Shown here: one piece after another, positions 430 through 7,519 of the stretch
Layout of the letters: each line of letters begins with the position of its first letter
How positions within the stretch are numbered: the first letter of the stretch is position 1
NCBI GenBank assembly: GCA_937907415.1
Contig: CALCHY010000148.1
Location: 1-7,519 of the forward strand
Origin: an uncultured Trueperaceae bacterium
GTDB taxonomy: Bacteria; Deinococcota; Deinococci; Deinococcales; Trueperaceae
Direction: 5' to 3'
Length of the DNA stretch: 7,519 bases
Translations under genes and position numbers: made by a program
The notes under the pieces: model-generated
Databases searched by the model: none
What the model saw: only the letters and a program-made list of their open reading frames with translations
Told to the model about the DNA's origin: nothing

Positions 430-572
430 TTGCGCTCGCTCCAAGATGGTTAGGGCGTCAGGCAGAGCGGTACATGCCATGCGTGAGGAGGCTTACACTT
501 GGGTGTATCACTATCGGGTTGATGAGACTTGCTGGGCCAACCGGTCCAACTTGAATCCTCGTTATCGACACC

Positions 573-585
573 AGGGGTGACAATG
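573..585 (+). promoter_or_regulatory. Ribosome binding site that sets the NTPase start
   Basis: AGGGG at 573-577 lies 5 bases before the ATG at 583-585. This supports starting the NTPase there and not at the in-frame TTG at 529, which has no comparable purine tract upstream and would add 18 residues of little apparent character. An in-frame GTG (577-579) overlaps the purine run and is therefore less likely. Confidence 0.6.
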
Positions 586-3500
586 GACAAATCGGCAGGG
601 GTGGGCGACGGGCTGTCTCCGCTGACTCCAATCTACGATGAAAAGCATCATGCAAGTTACGCCACTCACCTAGTAACCGCAATCACCAGTGACCCGCCAG
701 TTCACAATGTCGCCTTGGCTGGCGCTTACGGAACCGGCAAGAGCAGCATCCTACAAGGGGTTAAACAGGCCCTATCAGACTCCGCCGGTAGAAAAGCGCG
801 AATCCCGCTGGTAGAAATCTCGCTATCGAATATTAATGAGCCTTCCGAAAAGGTCGCCAAGGCGAGTGGTGAACCTTCCCTATCTGCAGTGCTACAAAAG
901 GAAGTCGTAAAGCGGCTCCTCTATTCCCAGAGCCCGCACCAACTGCCCCTCTCTCGGTTCAAACGAATTGCAGACTTCCGCCGGAAACGCGCCATATGGA
1001 TCGCATTGGGGGCCACGGCCATTCTATGGGCGATCCTATTTTTGGTCTTTGGTCCGTCCGGTATAAATCAGTACTTTGAGGGCCGCAGCCTGGCCCCCTG
1101 GCTTGGAGCCGGGTTGGGCTCCCTTGTCAGCATCGGCATTTTGTTTACTGTCCAGTATTTTATGCATCAGCACGCGGTGCATGAGGTCTCTTTCGGCGCG
1201 GCAAGTATCAAGCTCAGTGACGCCGCCGGTAATTACTTCGACCAGTTCCTCGACGAAATCATCTACTTTTTCAAACGCACGGGAACTCGGTACGTATTCT
1301 TCGAAGACCTAGACCGGTTCAACGACCCGGACATCTTCCGAGCGCTGCGCGACCTGAACTCGATTCTCAATGCAGCCCTACCAGAAGAGAAGCATGTTGC
1401 CTTCGTTTACGCCGTGCGCGACAGCCTCTTCGAGCCGGGAACCCCGGATCTCTTGAAGGCGCCTGGCGCCAGCAACGTCTCAGAGAACCCCGAGCCAGCC
1501 ACCAACTCCCCTATTCCTGAGAGCACACAATCGGCTGCCACAGGCCATCGGTACGGCGTGAGTTCGCCCGCATCTGACCGCTCAAAGTTCTTTGACCTAA
1601 TCATCCCCATTGTGCCATTCATCTCTCCTGAAGTTTCTGCAGACCTACTCCATCGCGAGTTGAAGTCAAGACCAATTGCGGACGACGCTAGGCCGTCACA
1701 AGACCTGGTTGAACTCGCGGGCCGCTACTTTACCGACATGCGAGTAATCCACAGCATCGCGAACGAGTTCCAAATCTACGCGAATGAACTACTCGGGAAG
1801 TCCAAGCTAAGCGGCTTAGATCCAAACAAACAACTCGCCATGATTCTCTACAAACATGCCCACTTGGCAGATTACGAGAGGATTCGGAGCGGTGACAGCA
1901 AACTTGACCAAATTGTGAAGAAAGTCCGAGAAGTCGCCCATGAACGCCTACAAGTCATTGACAAAACGGTTGCGCAGTTGAGGACAGAAATCCCAGCAGC
2001 TGACAAAGTCAAAACGCTTAGCGAGACTATGGGTGCGCGGCTCCAGTCTCTACTGGAAATCGGTGCAAAATCGAGCGGTGTCGGCGCGGGAGCTTCTGTT
2101 TTGCTCGAGCCTTCCCAGCGAACTTTTCAATGGCAGGACCTGAAGACCGAGGCATTTTGGACTGCATACGCCGCCCAACCCGGGGCGCTTATCCTCCAAA
2201 ACGGCGCTCGGTTTCAAGTGAGGCTTACAACTGACGAACTCGAGAAGTTCATAGATAAGGTGGCATCTATTGCAGCCTGGCACAGTAGAGCTCAGAAAGA
2301 GGTTAACGACCGCGTGCGATCTCTGAGCAGACTGCGCGCAAGGAACGTCGAGGCGACATTCACGCAGCGTGTAACTGACCGCTCGCTTTGGGACACGAAT
2401 TTGTCTGCCGCAATACCCGACCTCACAACGTACGCCCACGAAGTCTTGGAGGACGGGCTAGCGCTCGATCTTATGCGCTCCGGGTACCTGGACAACAACT
2501 TCGCCCTTTACGCGAGCGTCTACTACGGCGACCTGCGTAGTGTGGACGCCCGAAGTTTCATGCTCCAAGTGATGGACCAACACGAGACAGCACCCGATTT
2601 CAAGTTATCCAACAAGGACGTAGAGGCGATCCTCAAGCAGCCGGGATACGATTTTCTGAACACTCGGAGCGCTTTGAACGTCTCTGTCTTCGAGCACCTG
2701 ATCGATAATGACCGGCTCGAGCCAACTATCCGAAGATTGGTCGCGGGCACGCTGGATCAGAATCACGTCTTCGTCAGGGCTTTTCTCGCTCGCAGCAAGG
2801 CCGCCTCCAGACTCGTAGTGCGCCTCTCCCCCACCTTCGACAAAATCCTAAATGTCATTGCGGGAAACGAGCAGTTGGAACCGGATGTAAAGCTGCGCCT
2901 GGTAAGCACTGCGCTCGCCAACCTGGACAGCAAGGTTGACTATGACGCCAGTGACGCCACTCTCGAACTTATCGCGGAGAATATCGATAGCCTGCCCGTG
3001 CTCAGGGAGGAGCTATCCTCGGAGCGAAGCAGCGCCTTCGCCAAATTCTTAAGTCAGAACTCCATCAAGCTTGAGTCAGTTCAACATTTGCCCGACGGCA
3101 CAAGGGACGCCGTCATGGAAGTAAATGCGTTCGAGGTCAACCTTCCAAACCTAACAGCGATTACGCCAAGCGACGGTCAGGTTGGTATAGACACGCTGTC
3201 AGAGGTTCAAGACTCCCTCGCCGACTACCTGCTCCAGGAGTCCGAGGCGTATCTCGGCTCGTTGGAATCAGCCGAGGCGCAACTGTTTAGCGTTGACACC
3301 CCAGCACGCCTAATAGAAGTGCTGGAGCTCGCCACCAACCTCGACGACGATTCGAGCGACAGACTTCTCCAACTCGCCCACCCTGATGCCATGGTTGAGC
3401 GGTTCACTGATGCTCCCGCGAGCAGTTGGCCCAGCCTTGCACGCACCAAGCGGTTTATGCCTACCGCACTCAACTTGACCACTTACCTTAAGAGCGAACA

Positions 3501-4320
3501 GCACGTTGGCTCCCACCGCGACTTAGCGCGTAGCCTAGCCACAACTAGTGCGATTCTGTCCGAGAACGAAGCGAGTGACGATGACAAGACCGAACTGGCC
3601 GTATGGCTAGTCAATCAAGAAGAGATTCCTAGTCCCGTCACGTTGAGGCTTCTCTCGCAATTGAATCCACCTAATCCTCTGCCCCTCGCGAGTTTGCATG
3701 TCCTTGACGGCCAACTGCTCGCCGGACTCATAAGCGCGCGGCACGTCGGAGACACAGTAGAGACTTTCAACCACTTCGGCTCCCTCCCCTGGAGCGAAAA
3801 AGAACTGGCCCTAGCCAAATCAACGAACCTGCCTGGGTTCGTGACGCGACTCGAGCTCCAAAGCGATGAATACGTCGGCGTCATTACGAGTAGCCTTATC
3901 TCCGGAGAGGCAAAGGCAGCGGTTTTCCTTGCGGCCCAAAGCCTTCATGAAACCAAGATGCTCACCCTGGAGCTTGCGACGGTATTGGTGGATTTCGCGG
4001 CAACTGCAAGCTTGGGGGCATCAGGCGAAGAATTGTCGACACTCGCAAGGGCTGGAGCCCCGTCTGAACGCATAGCAAAGGTGCTTGGCCAGCGCGTAGA
4101 CGACCTTACCAAGATGGAAATCTTGGATGTCTTAAGTCAACTGCGCGGTGAGTACAAGAAGCTGGCTGCCGCTGACGGAAAGAAGCCAAGAATCGAGGAC
4201 GACAACGACGTACGACGGCTACTTGACATGTTGAAGGCGAAGAATCACGTAAGCGACTACCGCACAGAAAAGAAGGATGACAAGTTCTTGCGGGTATTCA
4301 TGAAACGCCACCAGAGCTAG
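583..4320 (+). CDS. YobI/KAP-like P-loop NTPase, membrane-anchored, 1245 aa
   Basis: This is a large predicted NTPase. Walker A is GAYGTGKS at residues 47-54, preceded by a hydrophobic strand (VALA). Walker B is YVFFEDLD at about 237-244, with the ED pair at 241-242, followed by RF. A sensor-like strand FVYAVRD lies near 274-280. Two hydrophobic segments, about 137-157 and 174-193, fall between Walker A and Walker B, the arrangement that defines KAP-family NTPases. The conserved-looking KFFDLIIPIVPFIS (335-348) and DMRVIHSIANEFQIY (385-399) match my memory of YobI-type ATPases. A Pro/Ser-rich linker (about 286-334) precedes the first. The remaining ~800 residues are mostly helical, with a coiled-coil-like stretch near 440-485 and Leu-rich repeated helices that could form a scaffold. 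KAP proteins include PifA of plasmid F, which excludes phage T7, so a defence role is plausible but inferred. It is convergent with the TIR/HTH gene pair. A TTG start at 529 would give 1263 aa. Confidence 0.88.
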   Translation: MDKSAGVGDGLSPLTPIYDEKHHASYATHLVTAITSDPPVHNVALAGAYGTGKSSILQGVKQALSDSAGRKARIPLVEISLSNINEPSEKVAKASGEPSLSAVLQKEVVKRLLYSQSPHQLPLSRFKRIADFRRKRAIWIALGATAILWAILFLVFGPSGINQYFEGRSLAPWLGAGLGSLVSIGILFTVQYFMHQHAVHEVSFGAASIKLSDAAGNYFDQFLDEIIYFFKRTGTRYVFFEDLDRFNDPDIFRALRDLNSILNAALPEEKHVAFVYAVRDSLFEPGTPDLLKAPGASNVSENPEPATNSPIPESTQSAATGHRYGVSSPASDRSKFFDLIIPIVPFISPEVSADLLHRELKSRPIADDARPSQDLVELAGRYFTDMRVIHSIANEFQIYANELLGKSKLSGLDPNKQLAMILYKHAHLADYERIRSGDSKLDQIVKKVREVAHERLQVIDKTVAQLRTEIPAADKVKTLSETMGARLQSLLEIGAKSSGVGAGASVLLEPSQRTFQWQDLKTEAFWTAYAAQPGALILQNGARFQVRLTTDELEKFIDKVASIAAWHSRAQKEVNDRVRSLSRLRARNVEATFTQRVTDRSLWDTNLSAAIPDLTTYAHEVLEDGLALDLMRSGYLDNNFALYASVYYGDLRSVDARSFMLQVMDQHETAPDFKLSNKDVEAILKQPGYDFLNTRSALNVSVFEHLIDNDRLEPTIRRLVAGTLDQNHVFVRAFLARSKAASRLVVRLSPTFDKILNVIAGNEQLEPDVKLRLVSTALANLDSKVDYDASDATLELIAENIDSLPVLREELSSERSSAFAKFLSQNSIKLESVQHLPDGTRDAVMEVNAFEVNLPNLTAITPSDGQVGIDTLSEVQDSLADYLLQESEAYLGSLESAEAQLFSVDTPARLIEVLELATNLDDDSSDRLLQLAHPDAMVERFTDAPASSWPSLARTKRFMPTALNLTTYLKSEQHVGSHRDLARSLATTSAILSENEASDDDKTELAVWLVNQEEIPSPVTLRLLSQLNPPNPLPLASLHVLDGQLLAGLISARHVGDTVETFNHFGSLPWSEKELALAKSTNLPGFVTRLELQSDEYVGVITSSLISGEAKAAVFLAAQSLHETKMLTLELATVLVDFAATASLGASGEELSTLARAGAPSERIAKVLGQRVDDLTKMEILDVLSQLRGEYKKLAAADGKKPRIEDDNDVRRLLDMLKAKNHVSDYRTEKKDDKFLRVFMKRHQS

Positions 4321-4607: not shown

Positions 4608-5798
4608 TCAGCCCTCGTCTCGCAGCGGGTCTATAGCGAGCACCTCATCCCTCGCCCAAGCGATCCACTCCGTTAGCGTCGTCTCCTCCGTTACGGCTGC
4701 CGGTACGCGGCCGGCGGCTTCTACTGCTGCGATGAACGCTCGCAGCTGCTCGGCGCGTGCCCAGCGCTCGCTCAACTCCAGGAGCTGCCGCGTCCTGGCG
4801 GACTTGGCCTCGCGCCGCAGCCGTTCCGCCTCCAGCCGCTCTAGCTCCCGGCGCCGCTCTTCCTCCTGCCGCTCCCACTCCAGCTGCCGCTGCCGGCGCT
4901 CCTCCGCGAGACGTGCCTCCTTAAGCCGCGCCCTCACAGCCACCTCAACCACCAGCACCATCACCTCATTCAAGGACCCCTCGAGGGGTTCCTCCGGGGT
5001 CTCCACGAGGCGCCGCTCCATCGAGGGGTAACTGACTTCGCCATAGATGACGCGCAACTGCAAGATTCCCGAGGGGCTGTAATCGTTAGAGCGCCAAGAT
5101 CCCCATTCGTATCCGCCTTTTGGTTCCCGCTTCTTCCTGGGGGTGCGATTAGCTCGCTCACTGAGCCGTAGGTGCAGGTCGATGCCCTCCACCTCCAGGC
5201 GAGATCCCTCACCACGCCCACCCTTCAGGAGCTTTCTCTTCCGAAGCCCAACCTCCAGCGCGTCCACGATTGCTAACGCACGGGAACGGCTGGCATCGCT
5301 TACCACGAGACTCAAGGCCCCGTTTTCCAGGCTAGCGGTACGCATGCCGCGGTAGTCGACCCCGCCGTCGTAGCCCTTCGCGCTATGCCGCATGCTCGCG
5401 TTCAGCTCGCGCGCCCAGGCGCCCCTCCGCTGCCTCTCTGTATCTACGATGATCTTGTTTTCGGGATTCTCCTCGTACTCGCGCTGCAACACGACGGGTT
5501 CCGCGGTCTTAGCCGTACGTCCGTCACGCACCGCGTGGCCATTGCCGCTCCGCGAGCCCCGCCACACGCGCACCTTCTCGTCACCGTCTTGTGGCCGCGG
5601 CAGACGCGGCTGCGTCACCTTCTTGGCCGCCGCCACCTTGGCCCAATGGCCTCGTGGCGGCACGGGAACGTCGTGCCTGTCGCAGATCTTGCGCAGGCCA
5701 GTGCCCGTGATACCGAACCGCTCCGCCACCTTGGTGGCCGGCTCACTCCACACGAGCTCGTACAACTCCCTCCGTGATACCGCCACGAGCGTTTGCAT
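4608..5798 (-). CDS. HTH-like N-terminus plus coiled-coil protein, 396 aa, function unknown
   Basis: The N-terminus (residues about 8-54) includes RRELYELVWSEPATKVAERF and then a Gly-Thr turn, LRKICDRHDVPVPPRGHWAK. This looks like a helix-turn-helix-type DNA-binding unit and is familiar as the start of a widespread, uncharacterised family in proteobacterial islands. The middle (about 110-285) is a mixed domain with strands such as GALSLVVSDAS and LEVEGIDLHLRL. Residues about 288-350 are a highly charged Arg/Glu-rich coiled coil, and the end WIAWARDEVLAIDPL closes the protein. No catalytic motif or membrane segment is visible. It follows the TIR gene on the same strand after 76 bases, which suggests one operon. 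The ATG at 5798 has no clear Shine-Dalgarno sequence; GTG at 5786 is an alternative. A DNA-binding or regulatory role is inference. Confidence 0.82.
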   Translation of the reverse strand: MQTLVAVSRRELYELVWSEPATKVAERFGITGTGLRKICDRHDVPVPPRGHWAKVAAAKKVTQPRLPRPQDGDEKVRVWRGSRSGNGHAVRDGRTAKTAEPVVLQREYEENPENKIIVDTERQRRGAWARELNASMRHSAKGYDGGVDYRGMRTASLENGALSLVVSDASRSRALAIVDALEVGLRKRKLLKGGRGEGSRLEVEGIDLHLRLSERANRTPRKKREPKGGYEWGSWRSNDYSPSGILQLRVIYGEVSYPSMERRLVETPEEPLEGSLNEVMVLVVEVAVRARLKEARLAEERRQRQLEWERQEEERRRELERLEAERLRREAKSARTRQLLELSERWARAEQLRAFIAAVEAAGRVPAAVTEETTLTEWIAWARDEVLAIDPLRDEG

Positions 5799-5874: not shown

Positions 5875-7026
5875 TCAGAACGGAAGGTCCTCTTCTTTGG
5901 GGAAGAGTTCGGGTTCGGGCTCCACGCGGTGGATCACCCCGCCCTTGACAGACCACTTCTCCCCCGTCCAGCGCCGTAGTAGCTGCATCAACCGAAAGCT
6001 ACCGCGGTCGCCCTTGTTCTGCGTGTTTGCCTCCCAGGCCTCCAGGAGCCTATCGACCTGGGAAGGCGTAGCGGTCTGGAATCGTGATAACAGCTTGGCC
6101 ACTTTTTCTTCCGAGTCGTCGTAGTTTCTTGAGCGCTTGTAGGCGTAGATGACTGAGTCGAAGAGCTGTGGCGTCCGCACAAACTTGGCCTCAAGCAGCT
6201 CGAGAATCTTCAGGGCCATTCGTTCCGGGTGCTCCAAATCGCCAGCCCCCAGGGCTTGGCGGATTCCGAGCAACCCGTAAGGGGTGCCGCCGAGGCGCAC
6301 CGCAATCACCGGCACGCCACGCCCGATGGCGACACCAACCTCCTGGTTCGTCCAGCTACTCTCGTGGAAATCGGCCGTCACCAGCGCCACTAGCGCGTCC
6401 ATGCTGAAGAGCGCATGCTCGATCTCGCGGTGCCACTCCCTTGTCGGTTCGATGTCTTCGTGAGCCACGAAAGCACCGATGCCACACCACTCGATCGCCT
6501 CCTTCAACTTCGAGGTCTCCACCTTGTAATTCGCCTTGTGGCTGAGGAACACCCGCGTCGGATACGGGCCCCAAATTCGCTCGACCGCCTGTGGCGGCGC
6601 CGGGCTCGTGACCACGCGGTGGTAGGCGCCCGCCTCCTCCCGCCATCGCTCATCCTGGATATGACTGGGCTCGAGGATCACGCTAGTGAAGCGCTCGCCT
6701 TGCATCCGGACCATCTCCTCAAGGTCGCGAGTGATGCGCTCCTCGATGTCGCGGCGGCGCCCGAAGATGCGGACGAAGAGATCGTCCGGTACCGCCAGTT
6801 TCAGCGTATGCCCGTGAATCCCGCCATCATAGTTGTCGTAGTGTGTCGCCTCGTCAACCGACGCGGGGCTGTTCACGAGCACCTCGCTGAGCAGCGCCTC
6901 ACCGTTCAGTTCGTAGATCTTGTTGAGAAGCCGCAGGTACCCTTCCGCCTGATACGGCAACTTGAACTCTGCCAAACCATCAGCCATCTGCTCCCCCATC
7001 CACCGCCAGAATCCCTTAGCGCCCAC
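5875..7026 (-). CDS. TIR-domain protein with SSB-like C-terminal tip, 383 aa
   Basis: A TIR domain spans about residues 156-260: strand A with box 1 TRVFLSHK (157-164), a BB-loop-like stretch FVAHEDIEPTREW (186-198), and SSWTNQEVGVAIGRGVPVIAV (223-243). The W-x3-E (W225, E229) fits the position of the catalytic glutamate of TIR NAD+-cleaving enzymes, so NADase or cyclic ADP-ribose-producing activity is plausible. Residues about 20-120 form a separate N-terminal domain I cannot name, with a YDNYDGG motif (63-69) and a helical, charged second half. Residues about 285-358 are helical. The protein ends in an acidic Pro/Glu tail closing with EEDLPF, resembling the SSB C-terminal tip. No signal peptide or membrane segment is seen, so it is likely cytosolic. 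The GTG at 7026 is the longest start. ATG 6999 and ATG 6987 are in frame, and the latter has the best Shine-Dalgarno (GGGGGAG, 6997-6991). The HTH/coiled-coil gene follows. Confidence 0.88.
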   Translation of the reverse strand: MGAKGFWRWMGEQMADGLAEFKLPYQAEGYLRLLNKIYELNGEALLSEVLVNSPASVDEATHYDNYDGGIHGHTLKLAVPDDLFVRIFGRRRDIEERITRDLEEMVRMQGERFTSVILEPSHIQDERWREEAGAYHRVVTSPAPPQAVERIWGPYPTRVFLSHKANYKVETSKLKEAIEWCGIGAFVAHEDIEPTREWHREIEHALFSMDALVALVTADFHESSWTNQEVGVAIGRGVPVIAVRLGGTPYGLLGIRQALGAGDLEHPERMALKILELLEAKFVRTPQLFDSVIYAYKRSRNYDDSEEKVAKLLSRFQTATPSQVDRLLEAWEANTQNKGDRGSFRLMQLLRRWTGEKWSVKGGVIHRVEPEPELFPKEEDLPF

Positions 7027-7133: not shown

Positions 7134-7464
7134 TGAACCGCCCCGCATTTTCCGGAGGCTAGTTTGCTTGAGTCAGGCTGCTGCCTGACCCTGCTGGCGA
7201 TAGTACATCTGCTCGAACTCGGCCGGCGGGATGTCGCCGATGGGCTCTAGTAGCCGCTGGTGATTGAACCAGTGCACCCACTCCAGGGTGGCGATCTCAA
7301 CATCGGTAACGCCCCGCCACGGGCCCAAGTGATGAATGACTTCGGTCTTGTAGAGCCCGATGATCGTCTCAGCTAGCGCATTGTCATAGCTGTCACCGCG
7401 ACTGCCGACCGAGGCGGCGACGCCGGCCTGAGCGAGCCGCTCCGTGTAGCGGATCGAGAGATAT
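7134..7464 (-). mobile_element. IS3-family element remnant (transposase 3' part and terminal repeat)
   Basis: The terminus reads TGAACCGCCCCG at 7134-7145, a TGAAC-type end familiar from IS3-family elements of proteobacteria. It is followed by about 27 bases and the stop codon of a transposase read on the minus strand. Similarity to IS3 transposases ends near 7464-7466, inside the segment that normally carries the second catalytic Asp, so most of the element is absent from this window. Immediately beyond, an IS30-like terminal repeat starts. Whether the rest of this IS3 copy lies on the far side of that element cannot be told from this window. Confidence 0.75.
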
Positions 7465-7493
7465 TGTCTGAGTTCAACCGGTCGATGCAACAC
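7173..7493 (-). pseudogene. IS3-family transposase (integrase core), C-terminal fragment
   Basis: The peptide from QYLSIRYTERL through GSRGDSYDNALAETIIGLYK, FNHQRLLEPIGDIPPAEFE and MYYRQQ is the C-terminal half of an IS3 OrfB transposase (retroviral-type integrase core). The Glu in NALAETI is the third residue of the DDE triad. The expected HSDRG motif carrying the second Asp, which should sit just before QYLSIRY, is replaced by HRPVELR, encoded by foreign sequence from about 7466 onward. The first Asp is also absent. The GTG at 7493 is only an accidental start in that flanking DNA, and the frame continues to the window edge. The fragment cannot be catalytically active as it stands. Confidence 0.8.
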
Positions 7494-7519
7494 CTTCTTG
7501 TTGGAGTGATTGTAGCTGC
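7465..7519 (+). mobile_element. IS30-like element end (terminal inverted repeat), cut by window edge
   Basis: The stretch 7465-7492 begins TGTCTGAGTTCAACCGGTCG and ends ATGCAACA. It aligns, from memory, with the terminal repeat of IS30 (TGT, then TTCAA, GGTC and GCAACA in the same order), allowing a two-base length difference. It starts exactly where IS3 transposase similarity stops, as expected for insertion into that gene. The body of the element would lie beyond 7519. A GGAG at 7515-area is not usable to define a start, and no transposase coding sequence can be identified in the visible 55 bases. Confidence 0.5.

Follow-up and report, generated by a model that had tools for sequence, protein, structure and literature searches.

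A TIR protein encoded in the DNA analysed here (the window, 7519 bases in all) ends in EEDLPF, a tip of the kind that closes bacterial SSB proteins. The observation extends far beyond this one protein, to a large TIR family spread across many phyla. Judged from sequence comparison, the (D/E)(D/E)(I/L/V)PF tail is probably a short linear motif that mimics the host SSB tip and docks the TIR protein into SSB-tip pockets. The resemblance had been pointed out for the single protein in the initial annotation, and it is now backed by selective conservation of the tip, by a second architecture in which the commonest tip is that of E. coli SSB, and by agreement with the host SSB at residue -3 (counted from the C-terminus) in 21 of 25 genomes.

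The new part is the SSB-tip targeting element, carried on a TIR protein, itself a known kind of protein. The initial annotation knew of no TIR protein with this feature, and no TIR or other defence protein with an SSB tip was found described in the titles and abstract openings of open-licence PMC papers among the matches listed.

The TIR protein and its surroundings

The TIR gene lies on the minus strand (5875..6987), as delimited by the open reading frame list and the homologues (Pfam TIR_2, E=2.6e-12). Its start was placed by the list at a GTG at 7026 (383 aa), while the homologues correspond to an ATG at 6987 (370 aa). The AlphaFold2 model shows three domains, an alpha/beta one at the N-terminus, the TIR domain and a helical one, followed by an end of low confidence. 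The N-terminal domain (residues 1-139; 6571..6987, minus strand), defined by alignments and the model, belongs to a family with a YDNWNGG...GHA motif and matched no Pfam family.

The TIR domain follows (residues 144-250; 6238..6558, minus strand), recognized by Pfam TIR_2 and by Foldseek, which aligned it with solved structures of TIR domains. Glutamate E216 of its WTNQE motif (6340..6342, minus strand) is invariant in the family alignments and is the putative NADase glutamate; we presume the catalytic role of this WxxxE residue from the literature on TIR NADases. Two features expected of a TIR NADase, the fold and the conserved WxxxE glutamate, are present in the window protein. Behind the TIR domain, alignment and model place a C-terminal helical domain (residues 254-345; 5953..6228, minus strand) that ends in a conserved WTGxxW.

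The remainder is a variable linker (residues 346-364; 5896..5952, minus strand), with a family column entropy of 3.0–3.8 bits over positions -7 to -18 and a low-confidence model end, and then the SSB-Ct-like tip with its free terminal Phe (residues 365-370; 5878..5895, minus strand), assigned from the translation, the family alignment and the host match in relatives. Positions 5875-5922 of the minus strand encode the final 15 residues, EPEPELFPKEEDLPF, together with the stop codon; the initial annotation had placed the tail correctly. The window protein thus has the terminal PF of an SSB-Ct and the acidic EED before a hydrophobic L at -3. Its residues 361-370 had a mean pLDDT of 60 in the AlphaFold2 monomer model.

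No other domain was assigned to a named family in Pfam/PADLOC-type searches of the window protein and its relatives. Fold searches hit the TIR part, and since the VIA-align rows spanned model residues 89-225 only, the other domains may have known folds. Pfam detected TIR_2 but no SSB domain (PF00436) in the window protein, in 37 relatives and in 9 further proteins.

The neighbours of the TIR gene in the window are a Tmn-like ATPase and an unmatched protein. The first is a 1263-aa YobI-like P-loop ATPase (529-4320, plus strand; Pfam PF20693, 9.2e-93; PADLOC Tmn, 1e-48), and together with the adjoining TIR gene it possibly forms a small defence island. The second, a protein of 396 aa taken from the open reading frame list (4608-5798, minus strand), follows the TIR gene on the strand they share, after a gap of 76 bases. 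It gave no family above the cut-off in family searches, and may be a co-transcribed partner of the TIR gene in this locus. Upstream of the TIR gene, at the other end of the window, the family search detected a fragment of an integrase-core transposase (7173-7517, minus strand). The window opens with a run of 17 G (positions 1-17), which has the appearance of a sequencing artefact.

Conservation of the tip in two architectures

The search with the window protein returned 912 homologues, and the statistics were taken from 120 among the matches listed. Tips were counted in the 116 of these 120 that extend at least 8 residues beyond the conserved WTGxxW. The C-terminal residue was F in 103 of the 116 and the end was PF in 92 and [ILVMF]PF in 86; the residue at -4 was D or E in 97. 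The stretch from WTGxxW to the end varied among relatives from 11 to 26 residues. Column entropy in the 116 was 0.85 bits at -1, 1.39 at -2, 2.43 at -3 and 1.9 at -4, against 3.3 at -5, 2.97 at -6 and 3.0–3.8 at -7 to -18. The expectation of the initial annotation that the tip would be conserved more strongly than the linker therefore held for the last four residues, but not for -5 and -6, which were about as variable as the linker. Tips in the window's family frequently have fewer acidic residues (TEIPF) than SSB tips do, -5 and -6 being hardly conserved. Homologues without a PF tail, which the same annotation had named as counter-evidence, do exist, as a minority (24 of the 116) and as whole tipless sister clades.

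At the codon level, the last four codons (DIPF) of five close relatives (L152, L162-L164 and L168) vary only synonymously. Changes in the linker codons of the same five alter residues, and -5 and -6 have one residue change each.

The tip recurs in a second architecture, which in its model consists of four predicted N-terminal helices, a TIR domain and a helical domain. The profile search for this architecture gave 5399 proteins at E<=0.001, of which 120 among the matches listed were examined. PF ended 118 of the 120, and positions -3 to -6 were conserved too; D stood at -5 in 105 and F at -7 in 47 of the 118 listed PF-ending members. The commonest form, with 46 of the 120 listed, was an exact DDDIPF, identical to the tip of E. 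coli SSB, which appears as DFDDDIPF in an excerpt of PMC10164576. In profile alignments the WTDQE of this architecture is aligned with the WTNYE (W-x-x-x-E) of AbTIR. The tail of its AlphaFold2 monomer model had a mean pLDDT of about 50. A subset of this architecture (P0158 and P0185; 392-394 aa) is extended at the N-terminus by some 80 residues ahead of the four-helix domain.

A base rate was obtained from the other reading frames of the TIR loci, namely 2674 stop-to-stop ORFs of at least 100 aa, SSB loci left out, many of which are spurious frames that serve as a control. None of the 2674 carried the tip and 7 ended in PF; among the TIR-matching ORFs the tip was present in 42 of 116, fragments and repeats included. 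The motif is short, which is the one point in favour of a chance resemblance or a sequence artefact, and that explanation is ruled out for practical purposes by these counts and by the PF ends of 118 of 120 and 92 of 116 listed homologues.

The tail might instead serve an unrelated C-terminal role, for example in recognition by a protease or in contacts within TIR filaments, the likeness to SSB then amounting to a shared acidic tail and terminal hydrophobic residue. Such a role would suit the 11 of 116 listed members of the window's family that end in F without PF, and the variable -5 and -6 of that family, but it would lead one to expect neither an exact PF kept despite a varied linker nor the agreement with the host SSB at -3 described below, and is very unlikely.

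Distribution of the tip and agreement with the host SSB

From 160 confirmed genome loci, 80 were retained, and 27 of these end in PF. By record title, the PF-ending hosts are Planctomycetes, Verrucomicrobia, Bacteroidetes (Pedobacter, Prevotella, Alistipes), Fodinibius and Proteobacteria, with Brevibacillus, Latescibacteria, Sumerlaeota, Caldilineaceae and others in addition. Profile searches of 1912 genomes in six phyla added three tip-bearing hosts only, because the family is rare.

A conjugative plasmid of Klebsiella pneumoniae encodes a TIR relative ending in SDDIPF, and no DNA match to this gene was found in E. coli genomes; a relative on a Pseudarthrobacter plasmid (L170) is tipless. With the single window protein as query, no close relatives were found in viral contigs. 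With a profile as query six were detected, and all six end in PF. PHROGs gave no match for the three members searched. One viral-contig TIR protein (L167, 3938-4699) has no C-terminal helical domain and ends in HELPF, so the tip can be present where that domain is missing. In the aligned tip-bearing members the helical domain is kept before the tail, and the tip is found behind differing N-terminal domains.

In a tree of 91 TIR domains, 36 of them from PF-ending proteins, the trait falls in several clades and needs at least 13 changes, on a topology with support below 80 on 50 of its 87 inner branches. Whole sister TIR clades are tipless, though the SSBs of some of their hosts carry tips, which indicates that TIR function does not in general depend on the tip. 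Two archaeal members (L022 and L029) are tipless, and the SSB search of their genomes gave no match. One protein (L023) has a lone SDDIPF tip amid tipless relatives, in a host whose SSB ends in DDEIPF, and may represent an independent gain.

Related restriction-modification-like ORFs recur near tip-bearing TIR genes (L002, L054, L055, L069, L075, L079 and L166), as read from the sequences by eye. On the same reading, no other conserved partner gene recurs in the compared tip-bearing loci. In L033 one open frame (1-1626) joins an apparent DNA methyltransferase end to the TIR protein, which looks like either a fusion or an assembly artefact.

The SSB search succeeded in 27 of 29 genomes with a tip or near-tip TIR protein, in 20 of 24 with a tipless one and in all three extra tip-bearing genomes. 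An SSB and a tip or near-tip TIR protein were thus available together from 30 genomes, and five of these were dropped before counting: in L001 the TIR protein ends in PS, in L003 it ends in SF and the SSB is cut by the contig end, in L005 the SSB is cut, in L042 the SSB frame stops short of a tip, and in L070 the SSB has no tip.

Residue -3 was identical between the TIR tip and the best-scoring host SSB in 21 of the remaining 25 genomes, against 8.8 expected from shuffling (p<=1e-5). Shuffling within architectures, with labels assigned by eye, raised the expectation to 16.4 (p=0.03). Removal of the near-duplicate L079 left 20 of 24 (p<=1e-5 overall, 0.04 within architecture). The four mismatches (TIR/SSB) were L002 (I/V), L004 (V/I), L062 (T/I) and L072 (L/S), the first two being members of the window's own family. 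The rarer V at -3 was seen in four TIR tips, and the SSB matched it in L033, L049 and L054, but not in L004. Over the last seven residues, a TIR protein shared 4.68 with the SSB of its own host and 3.69 with other SSBs (p<=1e-5). Longer identity to the end of the host SSB was found in L076 (EEFDDDIPF) and L047 (ATEDDLPF).

Part of this match could reflect shared ancestry within phyla. Supported branches of the TIR tree gave 3-4 independent pairs per comparison, too few for significance. For L versus any other residue there were 4 pairs, of which on average 3.9 changed the same way and 0 the opposite way (not significant); for I versus any other there were 3, with 1.8 the same way, 0.3 opposite and 0.9 without difference (not significant). 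As a correlation the host matching is strong, and the tree mostly agrees with it.

The last seven codons of the TIR gene and of ssb were compared in 8 pairs, and 19, 16, 15, 12, 17, 17, 13 and 11 of the 21 bases were identical. The stop codons differ in 5 of the 8 pairs, and of the 15 bases downstream 6, 3, 4, 2, 4, 2, 1 and 1 are equal. Recent copying of the 3' end of ssb into the TIR gene is unlikely in 7 of the 8 pairs, in which the DNA is clearly different while the peptides match. In L038 all seven residues agree with those of the host SSB and 15 of the 21 bases do, which fits selection on the peptide. In L047 the DNA is nearly identical to the end of the host ssb (19 of 21 bases), so the tip may there have been copied from it.

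Proposed docking of the tip and a possible role in defence

The binding of RecG to the SSB tip is weakened by loss of the terminal Phe or by a change of Pro to Ser, according to an excerpt of PMC10164576. The conserved Phe and Pro of the TIR tips are thus positions that SSB-binding proteins need, which makes docking the natural reading. Like the SSB-Ct, the TIR tip comes after a variable linker and runs from acidic residues through a hydrophobic one and Pro to a final Phe, and in several genomes it is identical to the host's own tip over at least 6 residues. It differs in that the TIR carrier has no SSB domain and in that its binding is putative.

One version of docking is that the tip binds constitutively to the host partners of SSB (RecO, PriA, RecG, chi and others). 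The TIR protein would then be parked at forks or repair sites and would fire when a phage attacks or crowds those SSB-binding proteins. Its share of probability lies inside that given to docking as a whole, and it must be regarded as tentative. A tip that tracks the host SSB is what docking on host proteins would produce, and its presence behind different N-terminal domains resembles a portable localization signal; constitutive clustering at forks, however, would probably carry a risk of self-activation.

The favoured version is that the tip is a decoy within a sensor. TIR NADases act when clustered. The TIR domain would be an NADase that stays inactive as long as the protein is a dilute monomer, with the flexible tail displaying a decoy of the SSB tip; the tail is of low confidence in both AlphaFold2 models, as expected of a free tail. 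Multimeric proteins that need the host SSB tip in phage DNA metabolism would bind several TIR tails together, and the clustered TIR domains would cleave NAD+ and bring about abortive infection. The best candidates would be the ring- and filament-forming proteins of the RecT/Red-beta/Sak kind, by which phages anneal single strands.

Published work, as far as excerpts go, offers precedents for these steps. Recognition of the seven C-terminal residues of host SSB by phage proteins of the RecT type is host-specific (PMC10711431), the ring-forming Sak80alpha of a staphylococcal phage acts together with the SSB tail of that phage (PMC11846896), and electron micrographs show Red-beta as rings and filaments (PMC8034648). 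SpbK, a TIR NADase, becomes active when the portal ring of a phage clusters it (PMC12847820).

For the tip-bearing protein the chance of an NADase output is put at about even, and phage annealing proteins are a doubtful choice of trigger. The decoy sensor as a whole, that is, a widespread TIR branch with the host's own SSB tip as an integrated decoy, kept in step with the host, whose TIR domains are clustered by phage multimers with depletion of NAD+, is possible but uncertain; constitutive docking on host partners is about as likely, and a self-latch less so.

In such a latch the helical domain would itself offer a pocket of the SSB-tip-binding kind, and the tip seated there would hold the protein in the off-state until displaced by SSB tips that accumulate on phage single-stranded DNA. 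Retention of the helical domain before the tail in aligned tip-bearing members is in line with this, as are the several defence systems triggered by phage SSBs (PMC12887533 and PMC10732053, in excerpt). The latch is nevertheless rather unlikely, because the tail is left unplaced in both monomer models (a weak argument at mean pLDDT 60 and about 50) and because a self-contained latch need not follow the residue of the host SSB; L167, moreover, has a tip and lacks the helical domain.

Among the close known systems is SpbK of B. subtilis, a TIR NADase with a four-helix N-terminal domain that is activated by the phage portal YonE (excerpt of PMC12847820). It shares the TIR enzyme, four helices are likewise predicted before the TIR domain of the second architecture, and PADLOC gave a weak spbK match in 3 of 58 members. 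The tip-bearing proteins differ by adding a C-terminal helical domain and a tail, and SpbK docks on the portal through its N-terminal domain (same excerpt). Thoeris proteins (ThsB; NCBIfam ThcB4) have TIR domains that match over about 50–90 residues, and the precomputed PF08937 (ThsB TIR) is found in 3 of 120 relatives among the matches listed. Membership of the window protein in Thoeris was rejected (ThcB4, 41.6 against a cut-off of 220 bits; ThsB_TIR, 17.4 against 21.2 bits), and so was membership in the Retron TIR reverse transcriptases (NF042941, 35.6 against 600 bits, in the TIR part only). In the place where Thoeris would have a ThsA-type partner gene, the window has the Tmn-like ATPase and the unmatched 396-aa protein.

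Defence triggered by a phage SSB is already known (PMC12887533, PMC10732053 and PMC13381803, in excerpt). Retron-Eco8, AbpAB, Hna and Nhi, and Hachiman by co-expression, link SSB biology to abortive infection in this way (PMC10732053 and PMC12887533, likewise). These systems respond to the SSB of the phage, whereas the TIR protein described here carries a copy of the host SSB tip. A parallel is offered by the integrated decoys of plant immune receptors, in which an immune protein bears a copy of a host target as bait. The bait in the TIR protein would be a six-residue tail, and no homology to the plant receptors is claimed.

Since many proteins of the second architecture end in precisely the tip of E. 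coli SSB, the proposal is testable in E. coli K-12, with peptide assays such as those in use for SSB partners. A host-matched mimic of the SSB tip would give a large, phylum-crossing TIR family a concrete route of sensing or targeting through the hub of replication and repair, and it could account for the fitting of a horizontally mobile immune gene to its host through six residues. The decoy, if true, would amount to an integrated decoy in bacteria at the size of a peptide, unavoidable for phage replication and recombination proteins that depend on reading the host tip, and a phage could escape it only by giving up SSB binding.
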